Positions 14,946 through 31,715 of a DNA stretch of 47,634 nt are shown here, one piece after another; the first letter of the stretch is position 1, and every line of letters begins with the position of its first letter. This stretch comes from Bacteroidales bacterium (GTDB taxonomy: Bacteria > Bacteroidota > Bacteroidia > Bacteroidales > UBA932), in the NCBI GenBank assembly GCA_017465225.1, contig JAFTWQ010000039.1:1-47634 (forward strand), read 5' to 3'. Below the pieces are notes generated by a model. It worked only from the letters and a program-made list of their open reading frames with translations, searched no databases and had not been told where the DNA came from. The translations under genes were made by a program, and so were the position numbers.

Positions 14946-15046
14946 CGAATGACTTTATGCTCCATTGGCCCCCTCCCACTCTGCGAGTGGGCCCCTCCCC
15001 CTACCCGGGGGTGGGAAAATGCCAATTACGCATTTAAAGTCATTCG
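14946..15046. repeat. Palindromic element copy A1, argG-argC
   Basis: Outer arms CGAATGACTTTA (14946-14957) and TAAAGTCATTCG (15035-15046) pair perfectly and are unique to this copy. Inside, ATTGGC/GCCAAT frame a GC-rich core with two hairpins, CCCACTC-TGC-GAGTGGG and CCCCC-TACC-CGGGGG (with one extra C). Bases 14960-15027 (68 bases) are identical to 15751-15818 inside argC. The region holds no other gene. Confidence 0.85.
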
Positions 15047-15097
15047 ACCAAAGCAGCATGGCACGATATGGACAGAATAACGACAAAGCAAGTAAAT

Positions 15098-16234
15098 ATG
15101 AATGAAAACAATAAAATCCGCGTAGCTATTGCCGGAGGAACAGGATATACTGGAGGTGAACTGTTCAGGATATTGCTGAATCATCCGGATGTGGAGATTG
15201 TGGCGGCTACTACGACTTCTTCCGAGGGCACACCGGTGGCTTCCGTCCATAGGGATCTTATCGGAGAGACCGATCTTTGCTTCGGTACGGAGCTGAACGA
15301 TCCGGATGTGATTTTCCTGTGTCTTGGTCATGGCATCTCACGTCAGTTTGTTGACACTCATGACATAAAGCCGGAATGCAGGATCATAGATCTCGGCAAT
15401 GATTTCAGACTCGACGGAGAGTATGCCGGAAGACATTTCGTGTATGGTCTTTGCGAAAGTGCACGCAAAGAGGTGCGCAAGGCGCATGATGTTGCCAATC
15501 CGGGCTGCTTTGCCACTGCTATTCAGTTGGCTGCATTGCCTTTGGCTGCGGCAGGGCTTATAAATGATGAGATCCACGTTACTGCTATAACCGGTTCTAC
15601 AGGGGCAGGTAAGAAACCTGGAGAGACTACGCATTTCAGCTATAGAAGTGATAATATTTCGATCTATAAGTTGTTTTCGCATCAGCATCTGGCAGAGATC
15701 AGGAAGAATCTTCAGAAGGTTCATGATGCAAAGGGTTCGCAGGCTGCGGCCTCCATTGGCCCCCTCCCACTCTGCGAGTGGGCCCCTCCCCCTACCCGGG
15801 GGTGGGAAAATGCCAATTCCGGCCATCAGCCTTGCTCCCTTTCAGATCAACAAGAACTTTGTACAGGTGAAACGCGAACTGAGATAAAGGTGAATTTTGT
15901 GCCGTTGAGAGGTGATTTTGCGAGGGGAATATTTGCGAGTGTGTATACGAGGGCTGCCGAGGGGATGAGCCAGGAGGATTACCAGAGGATTTTCGAGGAT
16001 TATTATGCAGAGTCGCCTTTTGTGTTCCATAGCAAGGAGGGTATCTCGATGAAGGAGGTAGTGAATACTAACAAGGGACTTGTGCATGTGGAGGTTCATG
16101 ACGGATATGTGCATATTGCTTCTGCGATCGATAATCTGGTGAAGGGTGCGGCAGGTCAGGCTGTGCAGAATATGAATCTGATGTTCGGGCTGCCGGAAGA
16201 CAGCGGTCTTCGTCTCAAGCCTTCTGCATTTTGA
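15098..16234 (+). CDS. argC: N-acyl-gamma-glutamyl-phosphate reductase with in-frame insertion
   Basis: 378 residues from the ATG at 15098. NADP-binding GGTGYTGGELFR (13-24) and the catalytic Cys in NPGCFATA (Cys137) are present, with the usual C-terminal end QNMNLMFGLPEDSGLRLKPSAF. It reduces the acyl-glutamyl phosphate to the semialdehyde. Residues about 211-260 are foreign: Pro/Trp-rich sequence encoded by palindromic element copy A2, placed between EIRKNLQKV and EIKVNFVPLRGDF. Bacteroides ArgC is about 320 residues (from memory), so roughly 50-58 residues are extra. The frame stays open. Whether the enzyme works with this loop is unknown, but the rest is undamaged. Confidence 0.9.
   Translation: MNENNKIRVAIAGGTGYTGGELFRILLNHPDVEIVAATTTSSEGTPVASVHRDLIGETDLCFGTELNDPDVIFLCLGHGISRQFVDTHDIKPECRIIDLGNDFRLDGEYAGRHFVYGLCESARKEVRKAHDVANPGCFATAIQLAALPLAAAGLINDEIHVTAITGSTGAGKKPGETTHFSYRSDNISIYKLFSHQHLAEIRKNLQKVHDAKGSQAAASIGPLPLCEWAPPPTRGWENANSGHQPCSLSDQQELCTGETRTEIKVNFVPLRGDFARGIFASVYTRAAEGMSQEDYQRIFEDYYAESPFVFHSKEGISMKEVVNTNKGLVHVEVHDGYVHIASAIDNLVKGAAGQAVQNMNLMFGLPEDSGLRLKPSAF
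15730..15842. repeat. Palindromic element copy A2 inside argC
   Basis: The 68-base core 15751-15818 is identical to copy A1. Its flanks again form an inverted repeat, imperfect and different from A1: AAAGGG...AGGCTG..GGCC on the left against the complement on the right, ending CCCTTT at 15842. It is read through in the argC frame (core = residues about 218-241). Confidence 0.85.
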
Positions 16235-16235
16235 C

Positions 16236-16332
16236 GGATTGAATCATTGTATTCCGAAGACCCCCGTCCTCGCTATGCTCGGACACCCCCTAGCCGGGGG
16301 TGGCATGTCTTCTCCACACAATAATTCAATCC
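16236..16332. repeat. Palindromic element copy B1, argC-argD
   Basis: Arms GGATTGAATCATTGT (16236-16250) and ACAATAATTCAATCC (16318-16332) pair at 14 of 15 positions. The inner part is bounded by GAAGAC/GTCTTC and contains CACCCCCTAGCCGGGGGTG. It shares a 26-base identical block, inverted, with copy B2 near lon. It begins 1 base after the argC stop codon. Confidence 0.8.
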
Positions 16333-16393
16333 TCCCATCCAAAAACAGAATTTTGAGACGATGACCTTGGGACGCGGAGGGTGATATTAGAGT

Positions 16394-16476
16394 AAAAGCA
16401 CGAAAAAGGCTGGATTTGTGCTTTTGAGACCATTTTTAGTTGTTAAAAGAACGAAAACGGGCATTTTTGTGCTTTT
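16394..16476. repeat. Twin hairpins, 51-base period, upstream of argD
   Basis: Unit 1: AAAAGCAC (16394-16401) pairs with GTGCTTTT (16418-16425). Unit 2: AAAAGAAC (16445-16452) with GTGCTTTT (16469-16476). Units start 51 bases apart and have similar A/T-rich loops. A possible argD promoter, TTG (16440-16442)-N19-CATTTTTG (16462-16469), overlaps unit 2. The stretch 16333-16499 holds no gene. Confidence 0.65.
16440..16469 (+). promoter_or_regulatory. Possible argD promoter (TTG-N19-CATTTTTG)
   Basis: One mismatch from TAnnTTTG in the -7 box, with a correctly spaced TTG. It lies within the second hairpin unit, 30 bases before the argD ATG, so the hairpin could affect transcription start. Confidence 0.4.
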
Positions 16477-16499
16477 GATTAAGGGAAAGAGAGATTTTT

Positions 16500-17639
16500 A
16501 TGAATTTATTTGATGTTTACCCTTTATGGGATATTGAGCCGGTCAAGGGACTGGATACGACACTTTGGGATAAGGATGGGGTCGAGTATACCGACCTTTA
16601 TGGCGGACATGCCGTGATTTCGGTGGGACATTGCCATCCGCATTATGTGAAGATGCTTTCCGAACAGCTTTCAAAGCTGGGATTCTATTCTAATGCCGTG
16701 CAGAATTCACTGCAGAGGGATCTGGCCGCACGTCTGGGAAAGGTCAGCGGTTATGATGATTATGCGCTTTTTCTCTGCAACAGCGGCGCCGAGGCGAATG
16801 AAAATGCATTGAAGGTTGCGTCCTTCCATACCGGGAAAGCCAAGGTCCTTGCATTCCGTAAGGCATTCCACGGAAGGACTTCCGGTGCCGTTGCGGCGAC
16901 AGACAACCCGAAGATTCAGGCTCCGTTCAATGAAACCGCCAATATAGTTTTCGCTCCGCTCAACGATCTTGAAGCTGTTGAACGTGAACTTTCTTCAGGC
17001 GGATTCGCAGCGGTCATCATCGAGGGCATACAGGGAGTCGCCGGCATATATGAGCCGACAGGCGAATTCCTTCATGGGCTCCGTTCACTCTGCGACAGGT
17101 ATGGATGTGTCCTGATCCTTGACGAGATACAGTCAGGATATGGACGTACCGGCCGTTTCTTCGCGCATCAGCACCATGATGTACGAGCAGACATCATAAC
17201 AACAGCAAAGGGAATGGGCAACGGATTCCCTATCGGAGGAGTCCTGATCAGCCCTTCGATTAAGGCATCATACGGCATGCTCGGAACCACATTCGGCGGC
17301 AACCATCTCGCATGCACCGCTGCCATTGCAGTTCTGGACATCATTGAAAATGAACGCCTTATAGAGAACGCCGCCAAAATCGGCGAATACTTCAGGACCG
17401 CATTGGAGGGAGACAAGGCGATCAAGGAATATCGCGGCAAGGGTCTGATGATCGGTCTCGAGCTTAACGAGGAATATATCGGTCTGCGCAACCGTCTTCT
17501 GTTCGAAAAACACTTCTTCACTGGAGCGGCCGGTGCCGGCGTGATCCGCCTCCTTCCATCACTAACCATATCACAGGCGACCGCCGGATCATTCGTCACC
17601 GCCTGGAAAGAACTCACCGACCTGTCACCCCGAGCTTGA
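16500..17639 (+). CDS. argD: Acylornithine aminotransferase
   Basis: 379-residue class III PLP aminotransferase that converts the acyl-glutamate semialdehyde to acyl-ornithine with glutamate as amino donor. SGAEAN (96-100 region), the cofactor Asp in VLILDEIQSGYGRTG (Asp208) and the PLP lysine in TTAKGMGNGFPIGG (Lys237) are all visible. The last residues DLSPRA and the stop codon are encoded by a short dispersed palindrome (17623-17659). The upstream region carries twin hairpins and copy B1. argF' follows after 22 bases. Confidence 0.93.
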   Translation: MNLFDVYPLWDIEPVKGLDTTLWDKDGVEYTDLYGGHAVISVGHCHPHYVKMLSEQLSKLGFYSNAVQNSLQRDLAARLGKVSGYDDYALFLCNSGAEANENALKVASFHTGKAKVLAFRKAFHGRTSGAVAATDNPKIQAPFNETANIVFAPLNDLEAVERELSSGGFAAVIIEGIQGVAGIYEPTGEFLHGLRSLCDRYGCVLILDEIQSGYGRTGRFFAHQHHDVRADIITTAKGMGNGFPIGGVLISPSIKASYGMLGTTFGGNHLACTAAIAVLDIIENERLIENAAKIGEYFRTALEGDKAIKEYRGKGLMIGLELNEEYIGLRNRLLFEKHFFTGAAGAGVIRLLPSLTISQATAGSFVTAWKELTDLSPRA

Positions 17640-17659
17640 CCAGGGGTCTAAAAATGACA
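17623..17659. repeat. Short palindromic repeat spanning argD stop codon
   Basis: TGTCA (17623-17627) and TGACA (17655-17659) bound a CCCC...GGGG palindrome. The argD TGA (17637-17639) lies in the middle. The segment ACCAGGGGTC is shared with the tdk leader hairpin. The style resembles small repeats of the GTCACCCCGAGC...GGGGTCT type that I recall from many genomes. Confidence 0.55.
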
Positions 17660-17661
17660 TT

Positions 17662-18627
17662 ATGAGACATTTCACATCGATAACCCAGCTTCCGGACCTC
17701 AAGCAGGCCCTTGAAGCAGCAAAATACGTAAAGGAGAATCCTTTTGCAGACCAGGAACTCGGCAGGAACAAGACCCTGCTGATGATTTTCTTCAACTCAA
17801 GCCTCCGCACAAGGTTAAGCACTCAGAAAGCGGCCTTGAATCTCGGCATGAACGTAATCGTGCTCGATGTAAATCAAGGAGCATGGAAACTGGAGACCGA
17901 ACATGGCGTGATCATGGACGGCGACAAGCCCGAGCATCTGCTTGAGGCGATTCCGGTAATGGGCAGCTACTGCGACATCATCGGCGTACGTGCATTTGCC
18001 GGTCTGCAGAACAGGGACCACGACTATAACGAGGTCATAATCAACCAGTTCATACAGCATTCGGGCAAACCGGTATTCAGCATGGAGGCTGCCACAAGGC
18101 ATCCCCTGCAGACCCTTGCCGACCTGCTCACAATCGAAGAGCACAAAAAGACGGAGAAGCCGAAGATCGTCATGACATGGGCTCCGCATCCGAAGGCATT
18201 GCCTCAGGCTGTTCCGAATTCATTCGCCGAGGGCATCAACATGACCGACTATGAATTCGTGATCACTCATCCTCGCGGATATGAGCTTGACCCTGCATTT
18301 GCCGGTCGCGCACGGATCGAGTATGACCAGCGCAAGGCCTTCGAGGGAGCGGATTTCATATATGCAAAGAACTGGTCTGCATACAGCGGGGAAAACTACG
18401 GAAAGATTCTCTGCACCGACCGTGACTGGACGGTTGACGCCGAAAAGATGGCCTTGACCAACAATGCATTCTTCATGCACTGTCTTCCGGTACGCCGCAA
18501 CATGATAGTGACGGACGAGGTCATCGAAAGCCCGCAGTCCCTCGTCATCCCTGAAGCCGCGAACCGTGTCGTTTCGGCGCAGACTATCCTGAAGGAAATT
18601 CTGCGTGGACTGCAATCCCCTGAATAA
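17662..18627 (+). CDS. argF': N-succinylornithine (acylornithine) carbamoyltransferase
   Basis: 321 residues of the transcarbamylase family. The carbamoyl-phosphate loop is SLRTRLST (47-54), and HCLPVRRN is the C-terminal active-site motif. It belongs to the acyl-ornithine branch, not the classic OTCase branch. Residue 90 is Pro (DGDKP). In the B. fragilis enzyme Pro90 goes with N-succinylornithine, while Glu at the equivalent site in Xanthomonas goes with N-acetylornithine (published structure and mutagenesis work, from memory). The product would be N-succinylcitrulline, deblocked later by ArgE. Intact, with no repeat inserted. Confidence 0.9.
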   Translation: MRHFTSITQLPDLKQALEAAKYVKENPFADQELGRNKTLLMIFFNSSLRTRLSTQKAALNLGMNVIVLDVNQGAWKLETEHGVIMDGDKPEHLLEAIPVMGSYCDIIGVRAFAGLQNRDHDYNEVIINQFIQHSGKPVFSMEAATRHPLQTLADLLTIEEHKKTEKPKIVMTWAPHPKALPQAVPNSFAEGINMTDYEFVITHPRGYELDPAFAGRARIEYDQRKAFEGADFIYAKNWSAYSGENYGKILCTDRDWTVDAEKMALTNNAFFMHCLPVRRNMIVTDEVIESPQSLVIPEAANRVVSAQTILKEILRGLQSPE

Positions 18628-18717
18628 CAACCGCTTACCACTACCCACGTGCCGTCATCGGGGAGCACGCAGATACATATAAGTCACTAACAATCAAACA
18701 GATACATTCCACGCCAA

Positions 18718-19581
18718 ATGATAAAGGTAATCAAGATAGGAGGAAACGTAGTCGACAATCCGGAGCTGCTGGGAAGGTTTGTCAGGGATTTCGCGGCGAT
18801 GCCGGGAATGAAGATCCTTGTGCATGGAGGAGGCGTCATGGCCAGCCAGATGCAGAAGGCCATGGGCATGGTTCCGCAGATGGTGGAAGGACGCAGGGTT
18901 ACGGATGAGGAGACCCTGAAGGTGGTGACCATGGTGTATGCGGGATGGTGCAGCAAGCATATCACTGCCCTGCTTCAGGCCAATGGTTGTAACGCCATAG
19001 GTCTGTGCGGTGCTGACGGGAATGCCATCAAGGCAAGGAAGAGGGCTCCGTTGTATGTGGAAAGCCTCGGGAAGGAGGTTGATTACGGATATGTGGGAGA
19101 TGTCAATGCAGAGTGCGTGAATGCCGGATTCATATATTCACTGCTTGAAAAGGGCATCGTACCGGTATTCAATGCGATAAACCATGATGGGGAAGGCAAC
19201 CTGCTGAATACCAATGCAGATACGATAGCATCGTCTGTAGCTATAGCCATGGCGAACTACAGATACCGATCGCCGAGAGAGGTCTGCAGCCGATGTGAGG
19301 AATGTACCCACTGCAGCGATGACGGCAGACTGACTCATGAGACCGAGCTCATCTATTGCTTTGAGAAGGACGGCGTGCTGTATGATAAGGATGATGACAG
19401 GAGCGTCATCGGCGAAATCACGCGCGGCAGGTTTGAGGATCTCAAGAAGGAAGGCATCGTTGCAGACGGAATGATTCCGAAGCTTACGAATTCATTCAAG
19501 GCGATTGACAGCGGAGTGGCAAGAGTTGTCGTCAAGCACGCAAGGAACCTGCTCAATGACATGGGTACGGTTTTGATATAA
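18718..19581 (+). CDS. argB: N-acylglutamate kinase
   Basis: 287 residues of the amino-acid kinase family. The N-terminus IKVIKIGGNVVDN has the Lys and Gly residues that bind phosphate, followed by ILVHGGGVMASQMQ for the acyl-glutamate carboxylate. It phosphorylates N-acetyl- or N-succinylglutamate; the succinyl form is expected from the argF' residue. Residues around CSRCEECTHCSDDG form an unusual Cys-rich loop (four Cys in 11 residues) that could bind metal. The 90 bases upstream contain only a weak CGTGC/GCACG hairpin (18648-18669) and no clear promoter. Confidence 0.92.
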   Translation: MIKVIKIGGNVVDNPELLGRFVRDFAAMPGMKILVHGGGVMASQMQKAMGMVPQMVEGRRVTDEETLKVVTMVYAGWCSKHITALLQANGCNAIGLCGADGNAIKARKRAPLYVESLGKEVDYGYVGDVNAECVNAGFIYSLLEKGIVPVFNAINHDGEGNLLNTNADTIASSVAIAMANYRYRSPREVCSRCEECTHCSDDGRLTHETELIYCFEKDGVLYDKDDDRSVIGEITRGRFEDLKKEGIVADGMIPKLTNSFKAIDSGVARVVVKHARNLLNDMGTVLI

Positions 19582-19589
19582 GTGATTTA

Positions 19590-19667
19590 GTCCGTAATTT
19601 TGCCTTTATTACGGACGGGACATACCCAAAGAGTGGTATTGTCCGTAAAAACATCAGATTTACGGAT
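19590..19667. repeat. Twin hairpins, 51-base period, upstream of argE
   Basis: Unit 1: GTCCGTAA (19590-19597) pairs with TTACGGAC (19609-19616). Unit 2: GTCCGTAA (19641-19648) with TTACGGAT (19660-19667). Unit starts are 51 bases apart, exactly the spacing of the argD pair although the stem sequences differ. The argE ATG (19666) lies at the edge of unit 2. Confidence 0.7.
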
Positions 19668-20895
19668 GGGAGACAGATTAAATATCGACAGGCTGACAGC
19701 AGATGCAGTGGAGCTGCTTAAGGGGATGATTGCCATACCGTCACCTTCATTCGAGGAGGAAACGGTATGCAGCTATCTATGTTCCTGGCTTGAGGCCAAG
19801 GGAATCGGGCATCAGCGAAAAGGTAACAACATTATCGCGGAGCATATGACGGATCCATCAAGTCCGACTCTTATGCTGTGCGCCCATATCGACACTGTAA
19901 GTCCCAGTCCGGAATACAGTTTCGACCCATATACACCTGATTACGAGAAAGCTGCGGAGGCTGTGAGCGACATCATCGGCAGGCAGACAGGTGCATCGGA
20001 GATTGTGGCCGGTCTCGGCAGCAACGACGACGGAGCCTCGGTTGTCGCCATGATAGCTGCATACAGGTACTTCTGGAATGTTTCCGGTGGTGCCGGTGGC
20101 TTGCAAAACCGTGCTACCCCCCTGGCCGCAGGGGGAGGGGCCCACGACGAAGGAGTGGGAGGGGTTGTTTTGCAAGCCACCGGCACCACCGGAAACGTTG
20201 AAAGTCCGAATATGATTCTGGTGCTTACGTGTGAGGAGGAGAGATCCGGGAAGAACGGGATGACGGGATTGTGGCCTGAGCTGGCCTCAAAGGTCGATTT
20301 CGCCATCGTCGGAGAGCCGACCGGCATGAAGGCGGCGACGTCCGAAAGAGGGCTGCTGGTCATAGATGCCGTAGCACATGGAATCAGCGGCCATGCCGCG
20401 AGAAACGAGGGCAGGAATGCATTGTACATCGCCCTGGAAGATATCGACAGGCTCCGCAATCATACATTCAGCAAAGTCTCTCCACGGATGGGCAAGGTCA
20501 ATCTGAATGTAACGCAGATCAATGCCGGAACGGCACATAATGTCATTCCGGACACATGCAGTTTCGTGATCGACATACGTCCGACAGAGCAGTACACCAA
20601 TGAGGAAATCCTCATGGAGCTGCAGGAGATCTGCGAAAGCGAGCTGAAGCCCCGCAATCTTGCAAACAGGTCAAGCGCCACTAAAGAAGGATCGTCACTC
20701 CTGAAGGCAGTTGAAAATATGGGCATAGAGACATTCTCGTCTCCGACTACATCCGACTGGATGAGAATCAGATGTGATGCGATAAAGATGGGACCTGGAG
20801 AGTCGTCACGTTCGCACAAGAAGGACGAGTTCGTTTTCGTCGAGGAAATAAGAAACGGTATAGAAACATATATTGAATTTATAAAGACAATATGA
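19666..20895 (+). CDS. argE: N-acylornithine/citrulline deacylase (M20) with in-frame insertion
   Basis: 409 residues from the ATG at 19666; a TTG at 19600 would begin inside the twin hairpins and is less likely. M20 metal-ligand motifs: AHIDTVSP (His74, Asp76), GSNDDGAS (Asp121) and TCEEERSG (Glu190/191). It removes the acyl group late in arginine synthesis, probably from N-succinylcitrulline here. Residues about 140-178 are encoded by a palindromic element. Removing 117 bases (39 codons) between near-identical AATGTT and AACGTT restores a smooth FWNVESPNMILVLTCEEE. Its stop overlaps the argH ATG by 4 bases. Confidence 0.88.
   Translation: MGDRLNIDRLTADAVELLKGMIAIPSPSFEEETVCSYLCSWLEAKGIGHQRKGNNIIAEHMTDPSSPTLMLCAHIDTVSPSPEYSFDPYTPDYEKAAEAVSDIIGRQTGASEIVAGLGSNDDGASVVAMIAAYRYFWNVSGGAGGLQNRATPLAAGGGAHDEGVGGVVLQATGTTGNVESPNMILVLTCEEERSGKNGMTGLWPELASKVDFAIVGEPTGMKAATSERGLLVIDAVAHGISGHAARNEGRNALYIALEDIDRLRNHTFSKVSPRMGKVNLNVTQINAGTAHNVIPDTCSFVIDIRPTEQYTNEEILMELQEICESELKPRNLANRSSATKEGSSLLKAVENMGIETFSSPTTSDWMRIRCDAIKMGPGESSRSHKKDEFVFVEEIRNGIETYIEFIKTI
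20080..20196. repeat. Palindromic element copy inside argE
   Basis: A perfect 30-bp inverted repeat (20080-20109 with 20167-20196) encloses a 57-base GC-rich core. The core shares AGGGGGAGGGGCCCAC and AGTGGGAGGGG with the inverted copies A1/A2 and the CTACCCCC...GGGGG stem. The arms are not found at the other copies. The element is translated as GGAGGLQN...LQATGTTGN. Confidence 0.88.
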
Positions 20896-22220
20896 GTACA
20901 TTATGGAGTAAAGGAACACAGGCCACGGATCTTGTAGAGGATTTCACAGTAGGAAACGACCGCATACTGGACATGCGTCTCGCAAAATATGATGTGATAG
21001 GTTCAAAGGCACATATCAGGATGCTGGAATCGATCGGTCTTCTGACAGCTGAAGAGCTGGAGACTCTGACAGATGCGCTGGATCAGATACTTGGAGAGAT
21101 CAATGCAGGGGAATTCGTGCTTGAAGATGACGTGGAAGACATCCACTCTCAGGTGGAGCTCCTGCTGACCCGACGTCTTGGGGACATCGGCAAGAAGATC
21201 CATTCGGGACGTTCACGCAATGACCAGGTACTTGTGGATGTGAAGCTCTTCCTCAAGGACGAGGTCATCACTTTAAGAGATGAGGTTCTTGCCTTGTTCT
21301 ACACCCTCCAGACCCTCAGCGAAAAGCATAAGGATACTCTTATGCCTGGATACACTCATGGCCAGGTTGCGATGCCGTCTTCATTCGGACTGTGGTTCGG
21401 AGCATATGCAGAGGCACTCGCTGACGACATGTACATGCTCAAAGGGGCATTCCATGTCACCGACCAGAATCCTCTCGGATCCGCTGCCGGCTACGGAAGT
21501 TCATTCCCGCTTGACCGCCAGATGACGACTGAACTTCTGGACTTCGGAAGCCTTGACTATAATGTGGTTGCCGCACAGCTCAGCAGAGGCAAGTCAGAAC
21601 GTGCCGTCGCCTCGGCTATGGGAGCCATTGCGCTCACCCTCAACAAGTTCGCAGCTGACTGCTGCATGTACATGAGTCCGAATTACGGTTTCATTAAGTT
21701 CCCTGACGAACTTACTACCGGCTCCAGCATCATGCCTCACAAGAAGAACCCTGACGTATGGGAGATCATGAGGGGAAACTGCAACAGGATAATGGCCACG
21801 GAAAGCCAGATCAGCATGCTCTGCAGCAACATGCCGCATGGATATCACCGCGAATTCCAGCTTCTGAAGGACATCCTCTTCCCTGCCCTGGAACTCATGC
21901 ACAAGTGCCTCTGTATGGCAGATTACATGCTTCAGCACATCATGATCAATGAGAGTATTCTTGACGCCTCGATCTATGACTATCTGTTCACTGTAGAAGA
22001 AGTGAACAGGCGTACACTTGAGGGGATGCCGTTCAGAGACGCCTACAGGTCGGTCGGCATCGAGGTAAACGAAGGAAGATTCTCATATCAGGGAGCACCG
22101 GGAAAGACAAACGGCCAGCTTACGCCGGCCGATCTGAAGCATACTTCCCTTGGCAGTCTCGGCAATCTCTGCACTAAAGAGATCCGCACCAAGATGGAGT
22201 CTGCCGCTGCATTTATCTGA
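20892..22220 (+). CDS. argH: Argininosuccinate lyase
   Basis: 442 residues of the fumarase/aspartase superfamily. The signature GSSIMPHKKNPD carries the catalytic Ser loop, and HSGRSRNDQV is the N-terminal substrate motif. It splits argininosuccinate into arginine and fumarate, the last step of the cluster. The ATG overlaps the argE stop (ATGA), which indicates coupled translation. The 3' end overlaps the convergent SGNH hydrolase gene by 8 bases. Confidence 0.95.
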   Translation: MSTLWSKGTQATDLVEDFTVGNDRILDMRLAKYDVIGSKAHIRMLESIGLLTAEELETLTDALDQILGEINAGEFVLEDDVEDIHSQVELLLTRRLGDIGKKIHSGRSRNDQVLVDVKLFLKDEVITLRDEVLALFYTLQTLSEKHKDTLMPGYTHGQVAMPSSFGLWFGAYAEALADDMYMLKGAFHVTDQNPLGSAAGYGSSFPLDRQMTTELLDFGSLDYNVVAAQLSRGKSERAVASAMGAIALTLNKFAADCCMYMSPNYGFIKFPDELTTGSSIMPHKKNPDVWEIMRGNCNRIMATESQISMLCSNMPHGYHREFQLLKDILFPALELMHKCLCMADYMLQHIMINESILDASIYDYLFTVEEVNRRTLEGMPFRDAYRSVGIEVNEGRFSYQGAPGKTNGQLTPADLKHTSLGSLGNLCTKEIRTKMESAAAFI

Positions 22221-23304
22221 TCCCATATTTGCGAAGGATCTTCAGGATCTTCGGTGATATGCTCTCCAGCATATATGTAAATCCGAGATCCGTAGGGTGA
22301 GACCCGTCTGATGTCGCTATATGCTCATCTCCGAGAAAGTCGTCCGAAGGTATGAAATAGATATGCTTGTCTTTCTTCATCCTTTCACGGACGGCTTTTT
22401 CTGCCGCCGCCTGCTTCTCGGCCTCAAAGTCTTCCCTCCATGTATCGAAATTGCGGCTTTCGCGACGCTCTGTCTGCATGAAGATGAGCGGAACATCAGG
22501 ATGAGCCTCACGGATCATGTCCACGAAACGGTTGAAATTCTCATTTATGATCTCGGCTGAAGGATTGGAAAACGCATCAAATATGAACGCATCAACATCT
22601 TCTATGTCAGCGAGATACCTTGCATATTCCTCCTGCAGCTTTGACTTGCCGCTGAAGCCGAGGTTGAAGCAATAGAATCCGTTATCCCTTCCGAACCTGG
22701 CCGCATAGCTCATTCCGGGACGTGATGCAGCCAGACCATGTGTGACGCTGGATCCCTTGACCACTATACGATACTTGAAAGGATTCTCCAGAGGCTCCAT
22801 ATACGAGCCTTCCTCCACTCCGATGAAAAGCGAGTCAAGCCTGTCATACAGAGGCAGATAGAGAAGACATTCCTTTCTGCCGGGAGCCATATCCTTGACT
22901 ATCGTCCCGGAATGCATGGCATACTCCGGTCCCTTGTCCATCTTTGGCCTTCCGACTCCGGCGAAGACCCACTCCCCATCCTGCCTTATATACAGATCAA
23001 GTCCCTTCTGGGCTATGGCCGTCATATTCTCGCTCGCATTCTTCGGCGAAGTCTGCCACTTTGCCTTGATGAAAGGACTGTCGGTGGCAAACAGCACCGC
23101 AAGTCCTGTCGAATGGCAGGCATATTCATCTATCACCTTATCATTGAACCTGTAGGCCGATGTATCGATCCTGGTGAAATCCTTTGACGTCGGTATCGCC
23201 TTGCCGATGACATTGAGGTCTGCGGCATTGTGGTAACGGGTCTGCTGCGCACTCAATGAATGGCACATGAGTACGGCAATGGCAACAGAAAGTATCTTCT
23301 TCAT
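22213..23304 (-). CDS. Secreted SGNH-type hydrolase
   Basis: 363 residues: signal peptide (1-19, HSLSAQ), an N-terminal beta-rich domain of the SGNH_hydro_N type (about 20-170) and a catalytic domain. The serine lies in VVKGSSVTHG (Ser185), followed by the Gly block GFSGKSKLQ, Asn247 in FDAFSNPS, and the Asp/His pair in SDGSHPTDLGF (Asp333, His336). Such enzymes are periplasmic or outer-membrane-facing esterases, often acting on acylated polysaccharides; no substrate can be read from sequence. A minus-strand TATCTTTG box lies upstream, divergent from the CE1-type esterase, so the two may serve the same glycan. Confidence 0.82.
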   Translation of the reverse strand: MKKILSVAIAVLMCHSLSAQQTRYHNAADLNVIGKAIPTSKDFTRIDTSAYRFNDKVIDEYACHSTGLAVLFATDSPFIKAKWQTSPKNASENMTAIAQKGLDLYIRQDGEWVFAGVGRPKMDKGPEYAMHSGTIVKDMAPGRKECLLYLPLYDRLDSLFIGVEEGSYMEPLENPFKYRIVVKGSSVTHGLAASRPGMSYAARFGRDNGFYCFNLGFSGKSKLQEEYARYLADIEDVDAFIFDAFSNPSAEIINENFNRFVDMIREAHPDVPLIFMQTERRESRNFDTWREDFEAEKQAAAEKAVRERMKKDKHIYFIPSDDFLGDEHIATSDGSHPTDLGFTYMLESISPKILKILRKYGIR

Positions 23305-23325
23305 AAACTATGCGTTTGAGTAGGG

Positions 23326-23333
23326 CAAAGATA
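23326..23333 (-). promoter_or_regulatory. -7 box of SGNH hydrolase gene (TATCTTTG)
   Basis: Minus-strand TATCTTTG matches TAnnTTTG, 21 bases before the start codon. No clear -33 TTG. Confidence 0.45.
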
Positions 23334-23354
23334 AGAAAGATCAATTATTATTTC

Positions 23355-23362
23355 TATTTTTG
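23355..23362 (+). promoter_or_regulatory. -7 box of CE1-type esterase gene (TATTTTTG)
   Basis: Plus-strand TATTTTTG matches TAnnTTTG, 35 bases before the ATG at 23398. It forms a divergent pair with the box at 23326-23333. Confidence 0.5.
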
Positions 23363-23397
23363 TAATCATTCAGAAATAATCTTTAACCATATACACT

Positions 23398-24552
23398 ATG
23401 AAACATCTGACATCTTTCTTCATCTCACTGCTGATCGCGACATGTTCATTTGCACAGCAGGCACTCTGGAGCGGTTCACAGATCATATCTCCGGAAATCA
23501 ATCAGGACAACAGCGTGACGTTCCGTCTTCATGCCCCAAAGGCTGTAAAGGTACTGGTGACCGGAGACTTCACAGAAGCCGGATATGCCGAACTCGTTGA
23601 AAAAGACGGCATATGGACATACACGACAGCACCGTTAAGTCCTGAACTTTACAGCTATTCATTCGTTGTGGACGGTCTGACAGTAAGGGATCCGTCAAAT
23701 GTGTATATGATCCGCGATGTCGCAAGCGTCACGAATGTATTCATCGTCGGTGGCGGCCGCGCAGATCTCTATAAAGTCAACGATGTCCCTCATGGAAGCG
23801 TGTCAAAGGTCTGGTATCATAGCCCGACACTTGGCATGAACCGTAGAATGACTGTCTATACTCCTGCCGGCTATGAGCAGAACCGCAGGCAGAAATATCC
23901 GGTATTCTATCTGCTTCACGGTGCAGGAGGAGATGAGGAGGCATGGATGGATCTTGGAAGGACATCGCAGATCCTCGACAACCTTATCGCCCAGGGCAAG
24001 GCAGAGCCGATGATCGTGGTGATGACAAACGGCAATGCCGGAGAATCAGCAGCACCGGGACAATGTCCGGATGGTTTCGAGCGCATACCGGGATTCCAGC
24101 AACGTGGCATGATGGAAGGTTCGTTTGAGATGCACTTTCCTGACGTTGTGAAATACATCGAAAGTAATTACCGTGTGTTCAAGGACAAGAAGCATAGAGC
24201 GATTGCAGGCCTCTCGATGGGAGGTTTCCATTCTATGCACATATCGAAATACTACCCTGACATGTTCGACTATGTCGGCCTCTTTTCAGCAGCTGCAAGA
24301 TTCCACGAGAACTCTGACTGCCCTGTATACATGAACGAAAAGGCGCAGATAGACGCCCAGTTTGCAAAGAAGCCTGCATTATACTGGATAGCCATCGGAA
24401 ATACCGACTTCCTTTATCAGGAGAATGTAAAGTTCCGCAACTATCTGGACGAAAAAGGATACAAGTATGAATATGTTGAATCCGAAGGGGGCCACATATG
24501 GAAAAACTGGAGGATCTATCTTACTGAATTCGTACCGAAGCTGTTCAGGTAG
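23398..24552 (+). CDS. Secreted CE1-type esterase with E-set domain
   Basis: 384 residues: signal peptide (1-19), an E-set/CBM48-like beta-sandwich (about 35-115; VTFRLHAPKAVKVLVTGDF) and an alpha/beta-hydrolase esterase-D/CE1 domain (about 140-384). HGAGGDEEAW holds the oxyanion loop, GLSMGG the nucleophile Ser273, NTDFLY a likely Asp337 and GGHIWKNWR His366. This arrangement matches feruloyl or acetyl-xylan esterases that trim plant-polysaccharide side chains; the sequence cannot tell which. Export is predicted. The divergent neighbour is another esterase-type hydrolase. The stop codon lies in a small GTTCAG/CTGAAC hairpin. Confidence 0.87.
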   Translation: MKHLTSFFISLLIATCSFAQQALWSGSQIISPEINQDNSVTFRLHAPKAVKVLVTGDFTEAGYAELVEKDGIWTYTTAPLSPELYSYSFVVDGLTVRDPSNVYMIRDVASVTNVFIVGGGRADLYKVNDVPHGSVSKVWYHSPTLGMNRRMTVYTPAGYEQNRRQKYPVFYLLHGAGGDEEAWMDLGRTSQILDNLIAQGKAEPMIVVMTNGNAGESAAPGQCPDGFERIPGFQQRGMMEGSFEMHFPDVVKYIESNYRVFKDKKHRAIAGLSMGGFHSMHISKYYPDMFDYVGLFSAAARFHENSDCPVYMNEKAQIDAQFAKKPALYWIAIGNTDFLYQENVKFRNYLDEKGYKYEYVESEGGHIWKNWRIYLTEFVPKLFR

Positions 24553-24565
24553 TCTGAACTGATAC

Positions 24566-26050
24566 CTATTTATTGCGGCCAGAGCCGGAGAAGCAGAACG
24601 TCAGTGCGACTCCGGCCATGGTCCTTGAATAGGAACCAGTGAAGGTATCCTTGACCATCGGCCAATAGTCATATGAATACATAGCGGCAAGTTCGAATCT
24701 GCCGTATCCCACACCAACGCGACCTCCGAAGGTAAGAGAGTTTGCCTCATACATCCTTGTGGCATGCATATCTATAGGATATCCGTAGCTGGCTTCCGGT
24801 GCCACATACATATAGAACGGACTCTTCTTCTGCCTTACGAGATTGAATTTCGGAGCCACGAAGAGGCGCAGCTGATGGAAATCAAAGTCATCCGAAGCAT
24901 CCTGCACATTCACGAATGACCAGTAACGGTATTTGACTCCCATTTCAAAATTCATGAAGTTGCGGTAATCCCCTATACTGTAGAAGATATGTCCGCCATA
25001 TACAGGACGGAACGATTCCACAGGAGTCTCAAGACTGACACCGATACCGCCATTGAATCCAAGTCCTGACTTCCTGTTTCTTCTATGCTTTACCTTCGCA
25101 AACTGGCGGGTCTGCTTCATGACATACTCCCTTGTCTTCTCTGTCGTAGCATAAGTCAACATGATTTCAGCAGACGTACCTGCAAGATACATAGGGGATG
25201 ATGCCAGAAGGTATGCCACCTGATCAGACACCTCGGCACGTCTCGAGCTGCTGAGATATGTATTCACGAAATCCATTCCATGCCTGATCTTCTCCTCACG
25301 GTTTTCCTCATTGGCAAACCTGTCATACGCGATACCTTCTTCAGCCTGTGCCCTGAGGTCCATTGCCTCCTTTGTCAAAGGAATATGGTTTTCAGCCTTG
25401 TCCAGAGCGCTCAACGCAGCATAATGATCGCCTTTCCCCTCCGCTTCAAAAGCTTCCAGAAGCTTCACCTTTCCTTTGGCCTCATTGACATACTTTCCGG
25501 ACGGGAATTCCGAAATATACGAATTGAATGCCTCCTTGGTAGCGATATATGTAGCCGTATTCCACTTGTCCTCCTCGATGTTTTCCGGAGTGAATTCATC
25601 TGCTTCCAGAGCATGGATCATTTCAAAATCAGCAGGAGAGATGCTGCCGTCCTTGAGATAGACTCCCTTCAATCTGCCTGACATCAGGCTCATGTAGAAG
25701 ACACCGACGGTCTCACCACCGGACTGCTCAAGAAGACAATACTGATAGTCCGAATCAAATCCGGCAGTGATATTGTCATCAGTCACCATGTCCTCTGCAA
25801 AGCAATGGAGGAAATATATCATTCCTGCCTTGTCGAGTTCTCCCACAGCTGAAGATGTCTCCTCCATCTCGAGAGTCATGGCCGCATCAACACCACCGAC
25901 CTGTCCTTTCCAGGTGCCGCACAATTCACTCAATCTGCCGACTCTGGCCTGCGCGCGACGGCTGGCAGATGACAGATCCTGTGCGTATGTATCATTGATA
26001 TAGAGAGACGGCAGAACTGCCATCAGAAAAAAGACAAATAACTTTTTCAT
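24566..26050 (-). CDS. Exported protein with predicted C-terminal barrel
   Basis: 494 residues from the Met at 26050 (MKKLFVFFLMAVLPSLY), with a signal peptide ending near DTYAQ. Residues about 30-170 are a beta-rich domain of unknown type, 200-300 are helical and TPR-like (AALSALDKAENHIPLTKEAMDLRAQAEEG), and from about 325 amphipathic strands (GLGFNGGIGVSL, MNFEMGVKYRYWSF, FGGRVGVGYGRFELAAMYSYDYW) resemble an 8-10-strand outer-membrane barrel. No catalytic motif seen. The gene has its own TATATTTG box and a strong 5'-UTR hairpin. Envelope location is likely; function unknown. Confidence 0.78.
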   Translation of the reverse strand: MKKLFVFFLMAVLPSLYINDTYAQDLSSASRRAQARVGRLSELCGTWKGQVGGVDAAMTLEMEETSSAVGELDKAGMIYFLHCFAEDMVTDDNITAGFDSDYQYCLLEQSGGETVGVFYMSLMSGRLKGVYLKDGSISPADFEMIHALEADEFTPENIEEDKWNTATYIATKEAFNSYISEFPSGKYVNEAKGKVKLLEAFEAEGKGDHYAALSALDKAENHIPLTKEAMDLRAQAEEGIAYDRFANEENREEKIRHGMDFVNTYLSSSRRAEVSDQVAYLLASSPMYLAGTSAEIMLTYATTEKTREYVMKQTRQFAKVKHRRNRKSGLGFNGGIGVSLETPVESFRPVYGGHIFYSIGDYRNFMNFEMGVKYRYWSFVNVQDASDDFDFHQLRLFVAPKFNLVRQKKSPFYMYVAPEASYGYPIDMHATRMYEANSLTFGGRVGVGYGRFELAAMYSYDYWPMVKDTFTGSYSRTMAGVALTFCFSGSGRNK

Positions 26051-26054
26051 AGTC

Positions 26055-26076
26055 TGCAGAAAACAAATTTTCTGCA
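26055..26076. promoter_or_regulatory. Perfect hairpin in 5' UTR
   Basis: TGCAGAAAA-CAAA-TTTTCTGCA is a perfect 9-bp stem with a 4-base loop between the -7 box (26075-26082) and the start codon at 26050, at or just after the expected transcription start. Confidence 0.45.
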
Positions 26077-26082
26077 AATATA
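26075..26082 (-). promoter_or_regulatory. -7 box (TATATTTG) of exported-protein gene
   Basis: Minus-strand TATATTTG is an exact TAnnTTTG match, 24 bases before the ATG at 26050. No clear -33 TTG. Confidence 0.5.
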
Positions 26083-26095
26083 GTAAAATATAGCA

Positions 26096-26311
26096 TTATG
26101 CCACGCTGACGAAGCTGCTGACATGAGGAGAATCCTCTTCAGCTTCGCAAAGGACCATTTCCTGATACAGATGGAATTCAGGAGAAGCTATCTCTTTATA
26201 GATGTCTTCAGGATTGAAATCATTATCCCAGAATCTTTTGTAAGCCTGTAAACGGGCATCAGCGACAGCTTGAGCAGGATCTGCAAGATAATCCTCGATG
26301 AAAGTACGCAT
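26096..26311 (-). CDS. Small acidic protein, unknown
   Basis: 71 residues from the Met at 26311 (MRTFIEDYLADP); an upstream in-frame Met at 26320 is also possible. The protein is acidic and helical, without signal peptide or Cys cluster (one Cys), ending EEDSPHVSSFVSVA. No family recognised. A TAGTTTG sequence with a TTTG 22 bases upstream, on the minus strand near 26375, could be its promoter. It lies alone between two unrelated envelope genes, so a real but lineage-specific small protein is plausible. The coding call rests on the open frame and codon pattern only. Confidence 0.45.
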   Translation of the reverse strand: MRTFIEDYLADPAQAVADARLQAYKRFWDNDFNPEDIYKEIASPEFHLYQEMVLCEAEEDSPHVSSFVSVA

Positions 26312-26412
26312 GGCAGTCATTGTTTAGAAGGTTTTTATTCATGTCATGACTCATGCACATTTCAAAGGACGGACCAAACTACACTATTTTTGTAATGATT
26401 TCACAAAATTTG

Positions 26413-27906
26413 TTATTTCACAAGGGTAATATACCTCCTTAGAATGATTCCCTTGCGATCCGTTTCCAATACGAAAGGCAGGGCAGACAGGTCGAACTCA
26501 TCGAAAAGGCCATCAGCCAGAGACGGGTCATCCGAAACTATCTCATCCACATTGACCATCAGGACACGCACTTTACGGTCAGAAGCAGCCACTACAGATG
26601 CCGCAGCCTTTTCCGCCTTGCATATTTCACATTCCGATGTATAGAAAATGATGTAATTCTTCTGTCCGCGGAGCTTCCGGAGCCTGAACCATCCGTCCCT
26701 GGACTTTTTCGATTTAAGAAGTTTTCCCGGAACCTTGACATCGCATATCTTCTCACCTGGCGAAGCCTTAGAAAGAAGTTCATCCATCATCTGGGCGAAG
26801 CCTACCACCTTGAGCGAGTCATCCTTTGAGCGCCATATATCTCCACGCGAAAGTATCTTCTCATCAACAAGATACTTCATTCCCTCCTTATATCCTTCCC
26901 CTCTCTGACCTGCAAGATAATAAAGAAGGTCTCCCGTAAGCTGACGGAACATCACGGTATCTGCCCCGCTCAATGTCGCGGTCTCGATATAATCAGCCAC
27001 ATCAGTAACGGCCTTCCTGTCCGGCGAGCCTTCCTGACCGTCAAAAAGTCCCTCGAAAAGAGCATGAGACTCTTCCCCGCCATATTCCAGTTCCACCTCA
27101 TCAAAGATTCCATGAAGCATCGCCGACAATGCCTGGGCATCGAGCCCCCTGCCCAGAATCTTTCCCTCAGGTGACATCAGGAACATCATAGGAGTCTTCA
27201 GGACACCGTATTTCCTCTGAAAATCGGAATCGATCTCCGGATCCCACAGATGGACAACCTTCGTACGCGAGACATCGAAAGACAGTCTGCCGGCAACATA
27301 TTCCTCCCATTTCGCCTTGTCATCACCGGCATATACAGCTATGAAATCTATAGGGAAATCCTCTGTTTCAAGTACATTCGAAAGCATTATACTCTCAAGC
27401 TTACACTTCGCGCAATCCACGTCGTAGAAGAACAGCACGCGGTATCTTCCAGACTTGGCATCATCTGCAAAAAGCACGGTCTCTGTCCCGTCCATGGACT
27501 TCATGACAAGTTCCGGAGCTATCTCGCCTATCATAGACTGACGGTTGAAATCGGCGAATATCCTGGCATTCAGAAAATCCATATCGCTACGCATCCTTAT
27601 CTTGCCGTCAGAGAACCATCTGTCGAACACATGCAGGGCCACTGCTTCGGAACCCATCACCGGCGAACCGATGTAATGGTCATATACAGTACATGCAATG
27701 AACTGACGTACAAGCGGATCGGAGGAGCTCTCTATCAGAAAATCCGCCTCCTCCTTCTGCACCTCGGGGCCTTCATACTCCAAAGCCATGAAAAATTCGG
27801 CCAGTTTGGAGCCGAGAGCCGCCTGTACCGCAGAATCCAATTGCTGGGCAGCCCCTGATACACAGAACAGGAGCAACGAAACAATCAGACCTGCAAACCT
27901 TTTCAT
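26413..27906 (-). CDS. Exported protein with two thioredoxin-like CxxC sites
   Basis: 497 residues: signal peptide (1-20, SGAAQ), a helical DUF5106-like region (about 20-135), a TlpA/redoxin domain with FFYDVDCAKCKLES (CxxC) and a cis-Pro-like TPMMF, and near the C-terminus a second thioredoxin-like segment with FYTSECEICKAEK (CxxC). Periplasmic thiol-disulfide exchange is the family expectation; DUF5106 proteins are common in Bacteroidales. Two redox sites in one chain are unusual, and the second lacks an obvious full fold. The ATG overlaps the coaD stop by 4 bases, so it is translated from the ung-coaD transcript. Confidence 0.78.
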   Translation of the reverse strand: MKRFAGLIVSLLLFCVSGAAQQLDSAVQAALGSKLAEFFMALEYEGPEVQKEEADFLIESSSDPLVRQFIACTVYDHYIGSPVMGSEAVALHVFDRWFSDGKIRMRSDMDFLNARIFADFNRQSMIGEIAPELVMKSMDGTETVLFADDAKSGRYRVLFFYDVDCAKCKLESIMLSNVLETEDFPIDFIAVYAGDDKAKWEEYVAGRLSFDVSRTKVVHLWDPEIDSDFQRKYGVLKTPMMFLMSPEGKILGRGLDAQALSAMLHGIFDEVELEYGGEESHALFEGLFDGQEGSPDRKAVTDVADYIETATLSGADTVMFRQLTGDLLYYLAGQRGEGYKEGMKYLVDEKILSRGDIWRSKDDSLKVVGFAQMMDELLSKASPGEKICDVKVPGKLLKSKKSRDGWFRLRKLRGQKNYIIFYTSECEICKAEKAAASVVAASDRKVRVLMVNVDEIVSDDPSLADGLFDEFDLSALPFVLETDRKGIILRRYITLVK

Positions 27907-28361
27907 AATTCCACGCCTTCCGGTACAAAGAGAGATGTATCGCCACCATGCTTGAGGAGATCACGCACGGCAGTCGAAGAAATATGAGCGAATTCCTGGG
28001 CGGTCGGGATGATTATGGTCTCGATCTCCGGCGCGAGTTTCCTGTTCGCATCCGCAATGGACCTTTCGGTCTCGAAATCGATCATGTTCCTGACGCCTCT
28101 GACAATATGACGCACTCCGAGTTCACGGCATTTGTCAATGGTAAGATTGTCATACTGTATGATGCTCACACCCTCAAGGCCTTCAGTCGCCTGCCTGATG
28201 ATGTCCATCCTCTTTTCATTCGGGAAGAATCCCCTCTTGTCTATATTGACTCCCACAGCGACAATCACCTCATCGAACATTGTCAACGCCCTCTTGAGGA
28301 TATTCAGATGGCCGGCTGTAAACGGATCGAACGATCCGGGAAATAATGCTGTTCTTTTCAT
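27903..28361 (-). CDS. coaD: Phosphopantetheine adenylyltransferase
   Basis: 152 residues. PGSFDPFTAGHLNILKRA contains the nucleotidyltransferase motif (T/H)xGH, and ISSTAVRDLLKHGGD is the C-terminal signature. It transfers AMP from ATP to 4'-phosphopantetheine, the penultimate step of coenzyme A synthesis. Length is normal. It starts 1 base from the ung stop and its own stop overlaps the thioredoxin-like gene. Confidence 0.95.
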   Translation of the reverse strand: MKRTALFPGSFDPFTAGHLNILKRALTMFDEVIVAVGVNIDKRGFFPNEKRMDIIRQATEGLEGVSIIQYDNLTIDKCRELGVRHIVRGVRNMIDFETERSIADANRKLAPEIETIIIPTAQEFAHISSTAVRDLLKHGGDTSLFVPEGVEL

Positions 28362-28362
28362 A

Positions 28363-29031
28363 TCAAAGTGTCCAGTCTATAGGCTGACATCCTCGCGATG
28401 CGAGAATGCTGTTGGCCTGTGAAAAATGTCTTGAACCGAAGAATGCGCCACGGGCCAGAGGTGAAGGATGCGCCGCTTCGAGTACATAATGGCGCGAACG
28501 GTCAATAAGGTCTCTTTTGCTTCGTGCGAAATTGCCCCATAACATAAAGACTACACCTTCGCAATTATCAGATATATAACGGATTACCGCATCCGTAAAC
28601 TCTTCCCATCCGATCTTGCTGTGCGAGGCAGCCTCACCGCATCTCACCGTAAGCACCGCATTCAGGAGAAGCACTCCCTGGCGGGCCCATTTCTCAAGAT
28701 TGGGATATCCGCTCATCCTTACGCCAAGATCAGACTCTATCTCCTTGAAGATGTTCTTCAGGGAAGGCGGAGCAGGCATATTCTCCGGAACAGAGAACGA
28801 AAGTCCATGAGCCTGTCCCGGTCCATGATAAGGATCCTGACCGAGTATCACGACCTTTACATCCTTCACCGGAGTAAGGTCGAATGCCCTGAATATCTGG
28901 CTTCCGGGAGGGAATATCCTTTTTCCGTCAGCCTTCTCTTCATGAAGAAAACGCACCAGCGATGCGAAATATGGTTTTTCAAATTCGCCCGCCAATGCGT
29001 CCTTCCAGCTCTGTTCTATGCGTACATCCAT
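28363..29031 (-). CDS. ung: Uracil-DNA glycosylase
   Basis: 222 residues from the Met at 29031 (MDVRIEQSWKDAL); the open frame extends to 29088 but would run into the palindromic element. The water-activating loop GQDPYHGPGQAHGLSFSV and the HPSPLARGAFFGSRHFSQAN loop are family signatures. It removes uracil from DNA and starts base-excision repair. It is transcribed in the same direction as lon, with palindromic copy B2 between them; no promoter of its own was found. Confidence 0.95.
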   Translation of the reverse strand: MDVRIEQSWKDALAGEFEKPYFASLVRFLHEEKADGKRIFPPGSQIFRAFDLTPVKDVKVVILGQDPYHGPGQAHGLSFSVPENMPAPPSLKNIFKEIESDLGVRMSGYPNLEKWARQGVLLLNAVLTVRCGEAASHSKIGWEEFTDAVIRYISDNCEGVVFMLWGNFARSKRDLIDRSRHYVLEAAHPSPLARGAFFGSRHFSQANSILASRGCQPIDWTL

Positions 29032-29052
29032 AATAAAAGGTCTATTGTTTAT

Positions 29053-29146
29053 TATTTTAATCGGACATGGATGTAAGCGACATGCCACCCCCGGCTAGGG
29101 GGTGCCTGCCGTCAGGCAGGCGGGGGTCGCTGGAATCCATACTCGA

Positions 29147-29154
<8 letters not shown>
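29053..29154. repeat. Palindromic element copy B2, lon-ung
   Basis: Arms TATTTTAATCG and CGATTAAAATA (29053-29063, 29144-29154) pair perfectly; inner arms ATGGAT/ATCCAT and AGCGAC/GTCGCT also pair. The core contains GCCACCCCCGGCTAGGGGGT, then GCCTGCC-GTCA-GGCAGGC, then CGGGGGTC. The right arm includes the lon stop codon (29147-29149). No T-tract follows on the minus strand. Confidence 0.85.
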
Positions 29155-31552
<2,398 letters not shown>

Positions 31553-31566
31553 AGAATAGTCAACAT

Positions 31567-31581
31567 CTGCCAAAATGGCAG
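31567..31581. promoter_or_regulatory. Inverted repeat at lon transcription start
   Basis: CTGCCA-AAA-TGGCAG lies 10 bases downstream of the lon -7 box, at about +4 to +18. Its TGCCA/TGGCA core resembles the inverted repeat at recA. Confidence 0.4.
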
Positions 31582-31590
31582 TCTTCTGCA

Positions 31591-31620
31591 CAAATTTATT
31601 TCCTTTATATATATGGTCAA
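31591..31620 (-). promoter_or_regulatory. lon promoter (TTG-N19-TAAATTTG)
   Basis: Minus strand: TTG (31620-31618), 19 bases, TAAATTTG (31598-31591). CTTGGCACAAAG sits directly upstream at 31633-31622. Start codon 31552 is 38 bases downstream. Confidence 0.7.
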
Positions 31621-31715
31621 TCTTTGTGCCAAGCGGATCAGTCATGCCATATGTATGGAAATTTATGCCAAATACAGGATGTTGATAAGTTTTTCGCTGA
31701 AATTTAAGCACTTGA

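Follow-up and report, generated by a model that had tools for sequence, protein, structure and literature searches.

Hairpin elements of Bacteroidales with a shared, invertible core and arms that differ between copies yet remain paired

Results

Five hairpin elements in one contig

The stretch of DNA analysed here (the window; 47,634 nucleotides, contig JAFTWQ010000039.1) comes from a Bacteroidales bacterium and is contig C57 of a 2.35-Mb assembly that is 78% complete (genome G000). It contains five long hairpin elements, each with a core held between complementary arms, that lie within or beside open reading frames (ORFs; called by length alone, with no gene finder) which we take, by protein family, to be argC, an argE-like gene, lon and others (Table 1). 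An earlier note made from the letters alone had proposed these elements, and all five were borne out when they were re-read and refolded. The note had also given them one common core, CCACCCCCGG-n-TAGGGGG, which is present in four; the core of copy 4, CTACCCCCCTGGCCGCAGGGGGAGGGGCCC, is related to it but distinct and was designated type C, so that the window holds four A/B-type hairpins and one of type C. In form A, GACATG precedes the core and a TGCCT..AGGC hairpin follows it, while in form B these places are taken by GGCATTTTC and by AGGGGCCC..GGGAGGGGG.

Table 1. Hairpin elements and associated features in the window
Feature	Position	Strand	Location and details
Copy 1, type B	14946..15046	-	argG (ORF end 14944) / argC gap; core 14997-15014; outer arms 14946-14957/15035-15046
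argC ORF	15068..16234	+	contains copy 2, ends at copy 3
Copy 2, type B	15730..15842	-	in-frame in argC ORF; core 15788-15805; arms weak, interrupted
Copy 3, type A	16236..16332	-	immediately past argC stop codon; core 16286-16303
Inverted argC 3' coding end, degenerate	16338..16366	.	far side of copy 3; source 16205-16234
argE-like (M20 deacetylase) ORF	19600..20895	+	contains copy 4
Copy 4, type C	20080..20196	+	in-frame in argE-like ORF; core 20114-20143; arms 20077-20109/20167-20199
Copy 5, type A	29053..29154	+	core 29085-29102; right arm crosses stop codon of minus-strand lon ORF (29147-31711)

Copies 1 and 2 agree at 99% over 71 core nt, yet their arms are unrelated. The arm lengths given previously stand for copy 1 (12 bp), copy 4 (30 bp) and copy 5 (11 bp perfect), and copy 2 is imperfect as described, its pairing consisting of short interrupted blocks only. 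In copy 3, for which 14/15 had been given, the longest perfect run is 9 bp, inside arms that pair over 26 nt with 81% complementarity. The arms of copy 4 form a 33-nt pair, 97% complementary, which includes the 30 perfect bp.

Copies 1-3 and 5, when read on the core strand, fold into a long outer stem followed by a 3x3 internal loop, a short stem and two hairpins. Across 189 parsable copies, GGA or GTA opposite GGA is the commonest loop, and the 3 bp just inside it are fully paired in 149, with 25 different triplets. The loop is fully complementary in four parsed copies (for example TCC/GGA at locus L149, where the orthologue L103 has GTA/GGA), as quasi-palindrome correction predicts. Identity with an Rfam family was rejected, as the only matches were weak and below the gathering score (microRNA, small nucleolar RNA and one long non-coding RNA model), which is typical of long hairpins. 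One of these, to mir-9456, was obtained with both strands of copy 4 and is probably an effect of its long perfect hairpin.

Copies across the genus and the sites they occupy

The A/B core pattern, allowing up to two mismatches, is found 22 times in G000 (21 exact matches and one with two mismatches), and the reversed control pattern 0 times; the type C core is found at 4 places (up to three mismatches). Within the genus, 23/151 genomes, G000 counted, contain the core with at most one mismatch. Matches to an exact 22-mer in genome_contigs have titles naming only Bacteroidales, Bacteroidia or Bacteroidaceae, and the animal source, where named, is a ruminant, both among 80 listed of at least 109 matches. 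The same 22-mer had 0 matches in viral_contigs, and with this one exact search a phage origin was rejected. After further loci had been fetched, the collection stood at 238 distinct copies. A search of the open-access literature found no description of the family.

The copies lie mostly directly past stop codons or in-frame within housekeeping genes. Read-through ORFs holding an element are taken to be argC, argE, murB, sufD-like, hemW-like, folC, metH, prmC, aroK-like and rluA-like. In a set of 145 copies, with orthologues counted separately, the core strand is antisense to the spanning ORF in 36 cases and sense in 9, and between co-directional genes it is antisense in 36 and sense in 8; for copies within ORFs in a filtered set the numbers are 22 and 9. 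In this filtered set, the end of the right arm lies at a median of +1 nt from the stop codon of the gene facing it (n = 105), and distances of more than 30 nt are seen for 2/105 on this side and for 13/75 on the other.

Two of the sites within genes could be followed across species. The argC intragenic site is filled in 5/25 relatives and has a 27-54-nt linker in the other 20; the argE site is filled in 5/25, with L057 as a sixth filled site. At argE, G000 and G021 have the type C core in sense orientation and the other five filled species have it in antisense; its arms are different between species and paired within each. Other in-frame repeats occur in the same variable loops (L018 in folC; L099 and L110 in murB; the argC linker of L057 and the argE linker of L058). 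Some are tandem repeats and others translate to CHPERSEGS-like or HCEEQ-like peptides, and they may be widespread REP-like repeats.

Arms that pair copy by copy

The central claim of the earlier note, that the arms are different in every copy and yet pair, holds for most copies. Of 145 copies, five were dropped because they are truncated at contig ends, and in 73 of the remaining 140 the arms pair perfectly over 10 bp or more, compared to 1/400 controls with swapped arms; together with the 22 cores against none for the reversed pattern, this excludes chance. When only the outer arms of a larger set were scored, 113/209 copies lay above the 99th percentile of swapped-arm controls and 167/209 above the 95th. 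The longest perfect runs outside the window reach 27 bp. For 175/238 copies, a set pre-filtered by arm score (copies below 22 or with short flanks were dropped) and hence no measure of how many pair, the longest run has a median of 12 bp for the 31 copies within ORFs and of 15 bp for the 144 between genes. A census of the arm pairs in 166 distinct copies gave 3753 Watson-Crick pairs, 63 G.T, 23 A.C and 46 others.

The claim fails for one lineage, that of G063 and G074, where 0/26 copies lie above the 99th percentile of swapped-arm controls and 1/26 above the 95th. The arms of these copies look alike, and pairing is therefore not copy-specific there. Copies of this type were tested apart and left out of the counts for wobble pairs, arm sharing, position, flank mirroring, orthologues, arm changes and stems. 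This lineage is GC-rich, and its loci (L115-L134) have a longer, repeated unit with similar arms, sometimes with two units no more than a few hundred bases apart, or with short tandem repeats nearby.

Filled sites, empty sites and flipped cores

Sites that are always filled in relatives had been named beforehand as an argument against mobility. Empty sites do exist, for example in a comparison of the sister genomes G301 and G302, with site flanks that are 86-100% identical. The element at L318 is an insertion, without counterpart in G302 and, at the same boundary, in G026; the element at L324 is absent from L331 (G301 versus G302). Both gains are whole hairpins, arms included. By eye, L318 has TAGTCA on both sides, by the stop codons, where the stops of the empty site are TGA and TAA; no clear target site duplication is seen at L318, and L324/L331 has a possible 6-bp AACAGA repeat. 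At another site, a single short gap is occupied by different elements in G301 and in G302; in most of the other species read, this gap is empty or short. An apparent empty site in murB (L312/L313) was rejected, as it is a core deletion leaving one arm. A tandem duplication adjoins the element at L412.

The core is inverted in 25/79 orthologous filled pairs (the pairs overlap in their members and are not independent). L325 and L407 have the same arms around an inverted core, with flanks that are 98.7-98.9% identical. The same holds for L112 and L206 (flanks 98.3%), where one has an A.A mismatch and the other T.T at that point; L206 is the only core copy, with up to one mismatch allowed, in its metagenome-assembled genome (MAG), and its contig is possibly misbinned, but the comparison of the sequences stands regardless. 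Short-read assembly should resolve the orientation if the arms are shorter than the assembly k-mer, and mixed populations are possible behind the orientation differences.

Arms of orthologous elements show compensated changes. In 12 same-orientation pairs with 85-90% flank identity, 207 arm pairs are unchanged, 14 have a single change, 13 a double change that restores a Watson-Crick pair, and 1 another double change; two of the 12 set A against B at one site and account for 2 of the doubles. By a rough estimate, the number of doubles would be far lower if mutations had arisen only independently. A clean example is L038/L040, in which several positions have changed on both sides together. Ungapped double-change counts were set aside, as a register shift of one base inflates them.

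An inverted copy of the argC end

In all four species in which the gap downstream of argC is filled by an A/B element (G000, G287, G021 and G169), the 3' coding end of argC is found again beyond the element, inverted and degenerate. Of 500 shuffles each, 2 (L051), 0 (L058), 16 (L060) and 18 (L065) reach the observed score, so that the mirror is clear in two species and weak in two. Jointly, 0/1000 shuffles reach the sum of the scores, compared to 143/1000 for a direct-copy control. The mirror is not seen in the type C gaps L053 and L061 (380 and 147 of 500 shuffles), nor in the element-free gaps of at least 60 nt, L055 and L074 (484 and 488 of 500). These belong to 28 argC gaps that were read, the remaining 20 being shorter than 60 nt and excluded from the test. 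The pairwise likeness of the four far sides was set aside, since the stretches still include part of the element.

The excess is smaller over all sites: mirroring of the neighbouring gene's coding end by the left flank exceeds the level of swapped flanks (p = 1.5e-6), with 10/97 at or above the 99th percentile where approximately 1 is expected. With looser scoring, 5/99 inverted copies versus 1/99 direct copies reach the 99th percentile.

Discussion

Likeness to known repeats and a candidate mobiliser

The best explanation for the family is that it consists of short, non-autonomous mobile stem-loops of the kind represented by repetitive extragenic palindromic (REP) sequences, Rickettsia palindromic elements (RPEs) and miniature inverted-repeat transposable elements (MITEs). 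Constant terminal inverted repeats, as in MITEs, are absent, the arms being mostly copy-specific. REPs are described as many short stem-loops, mostly downstream of coding regions and some intragenic; the stem measures 5-13 bp in the published families, which end in a GTAG or CGTC tag (PMC3733652). The likeness to REPs or REPINs and their REP-associated tyrosine transposase (RAYT) lies in the many short stem-loops, mostly past genes and some within them, and in a RAYT-like gene in G000. Unlike REPs, the hairpins described here are approximately 100-125 nt long and have copy-specific arms and an invertible core; the window copies, at 97-117 nt and with arms of up to 30 bp, exceed the REP unit of 20-40 bp with its stem of 5-13 bp. 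A common terminal GTAG or CGTC tag is not visible among the copies, for which no formal motif search was made, because they share no ends; GTAG does occur inside the type B core.

RPEs are palindromic mobile repeats that lie in-frame in conserved protein genes. The present elements resemble them in their in-frame insertion within housekeeping genes, and differ in that their arms change yet remain paired, whereas RPE arms are described as losing identity over time (PMC6649704). A third likeness is to template-switch hairpins and coding palindromes in yeast and in Nematomorpha mitochondria, which have homogenised arms and spacer inversion, or paired arms within coding sequence (PMC8604942; PMC8794818; PMC6649704); none of these is a dispersed mobile element built on a common core. 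For template switching between inverted repeats, the first of these sources reports both arm homogenisation and inversion of the spacer (PMC8604942). The same pattern is present here.

A search for a REP-associated (Y1) transposase gene, suggested in the earlier note, gave a divided answer. A RAYT-like ORF in G000 (at G000:C80) scores 26.4 bits with PF01797, above the cut-off of 23, and 36.8 bits with NF047646, the REP-associated tyrosine transposase model, below its cut-off of 80. Matches to Y1_Tnp (E <= 0.001) are present in 23/23 element-bearing genomes and in 87/128 others (Fisher p = 5.6e-4), most of them being weak and kinship being ignored in the test. With relaxed core patterns, no element was found in the 5 kb around the G000 gene, and there were three matches among 28 Y1 loci that overlap in part, of which only L184, approximately 2 kb from its Y1 gene, is a real core; those at L165 and L176 look like chance. 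The arrangement of a RAYT flanked by its own REPs was thus not found for this core, other repeat families not having been looked for. The RAYT-like gene is a lead only, and insertion could be due to a RAYT-like Y1 enzyme or to another transposase.

How the arms may be made and kept

Most of what is known of template switching comes from reporter genes and scattered footprints. We propose that the elements are REP- or RPE-like mobile hairpins and that fold-back template switching would partly make their arms, keep these complementary and also flip the core, and we put the probability of this reading at roughly one half. The GC-rich core, about 60-80 nt long, consists of two hairpins that follow a purine-rich 3x3 internal loop, and it lies inside the loop of a longer stem. 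It would snap back, so that the nascent strand at a replication fork could turn round on itself and use its own flank as the template. Switching of this kind (quasi-palindrome correction) would place an inverted copy of one flank on the other side, keep drifting arms complementary and sometimes turn the whole core around between them. The outcome would be arms that are specific to each site and still paired, even within coding sequence. Arm correction, core inversion and inverted host copies are best united by template switching, which we infer as the agent; the source of the arms of new insertions is likewise inferred. A further-reaching version is rather unlikely: here the element would make its own terminal inverted repeats at each new site, insertion or the first replication copying the host flank in inverted form by fold-back synthesis, so that the arms of each copy would be its own and consist of host DNA, and the same chemistry would serve as a recombinase-free flip-flop of the core. 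That insertion creates an inverted copy of flanking DNA was also one of the two explanations offered in the earlier note, and the argC mirror and the empty sites agree with it; the making of arms at each insertion is not demonstrated by the gains at L318 and L324, which arrived as whole hairpins.

Several observations weigh against the proposal. Among the arm pairs, the excess of G.T over A.C on the core strand (p = 1.9e-5; 32 versus 9 in a smaller set of 86 copies whose arms score 24 or more) is not what symmetric copying would predict and is the main evidence against pure copying; it argues for selection on the core strand or for a strand-biased process. Five non-orthologous pairs among 224 copies have an arm 13-mer in common, and in one burst group the inner arms are common to four sites, the outermost pairs being different from site to site and nonetheless complementary, so that at least some arms travel. 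In 12 incomplete genomes, with up to three mismatches allowed, the 24-nt arm of L318 was found nowhere else, and flank copying therefore does not explain this arm. Arm correction must be slow, because almost no doubles are seen at flank identities of 90% or more: nine same-orientation pairs have 211 unchanged positions, 7 single changes and 1 double, and 5 singles and 0 doubles when L229/L333, which proved to be different elements at the same site, is left out. The gapped alignment of arms is permissive, as random copies give 2505/3838 aligned pairs unchanged (65%). Flank mirroring away from argC is weak, and at the 95th percentile of the looser scoring there are 8 inverted versus 7 direct copies of 99. 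Finally, all inference is comparative and drawn from incomplete MAGs, with no template-switch event caught in the act.

The strand bias leads to the other explanation of the earlier note, selection for an extended hairpin. A long hairpin might be kept by selection on the core strand, as single-stranded DNA or RNA (for instance as a transposase substrate or a regulatory structure), with the arms drifting through compensatory mutation. Besides the G.T excess, the constancy of the internal loop next to a 3-bp stem that varies and yet pairs would suit this. However, the core strand is mostly antisense, so that in the mRNA the skew is towards A.C and not G.U, which disfavours an mRNA hairpin, and selection predicts neither core inversion nor the inverted argC end. 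As the whole explanation we consider it unlikely, though a serious rival; selection on a single-stranded hairpin may act in addition to template switching. Ordinary mobile hairpins, inserted whole with their arms, the differences between arms being due to lineage divergence or to sources that were lost or not assembled, would account for the gains that include arms (L318 versus G302 and G026; L324 versus L331) and for the arms common to non-orthologous sites and within burst groups. Such an origin sits badly with the unrelated arms of copies 1 and 2 and with the single occurrence of the L318 arm, and leaves the inverted argC copy and the compensated changes in place unexplained; we rate it as quite unlikely.

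Alternatively, the element could insert into palindromes that were already in place, chiefly intrinsic terminators: it would enter their loops, and their stems would become its arms. Many elements lie directly past stop codons, and core-less relatives of the L323 and L326 sites mostly have unrelated terminator-like hairpins there, as judged by eye. Two empty sites in close relatives are without a palindrome (also by eye), there is little polarity (of 144 copies, 24 have an A-run and 24 a T-run on the left, and 27 a T-run and 15 an A-run on the right), and the idea is hard to apply within argC, argE, murB and prmC. As a general route it is improbable, and terminators as a general identity of the elements were rejected for lack of polarity, being retained for single sites (L323 and L326). 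A site-specific recombinase that flips the core as a phase-variable switch would fit the frequent inversion, including the two pairs with approximately 98% flank identity; the arms that carry the breakpoints have no common recognisable sequence, and we regard this as very improbable, the search for genes having covered Y1_Tnp and no recombinase beyond it.

A single recognisable core marks well over 100 natural hairpins in many species, both genic and intergenic, so that a comparison of relatives can reveal the likely products of template switching, namely arm copying, correction, inversion and deletion. This suggests how a small repeat can remain a strong hairpin despite sequence drift, how in-frame peptide inserts of conserved enzymes are rewritten, and where recombinase-free DNA inversion could occur in gut bacteria.

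Other small repeats were noted in and near the elements. An insert of approximately 50-70 nt is nested in the second hairpin at L095, L097, L144, L146, L147, L156 and L309; it has the pattern GAGC..GCAAACAGTCC..GCAGCGAGCAGCC.. and is present in several genomes. In the window, between copy 3 and argD (16393-16478), there are two imperfect 35-nt copies of another small hairpin, of the type AAAAGCAC...GTGCTTTT, with starts 51 nt apart.

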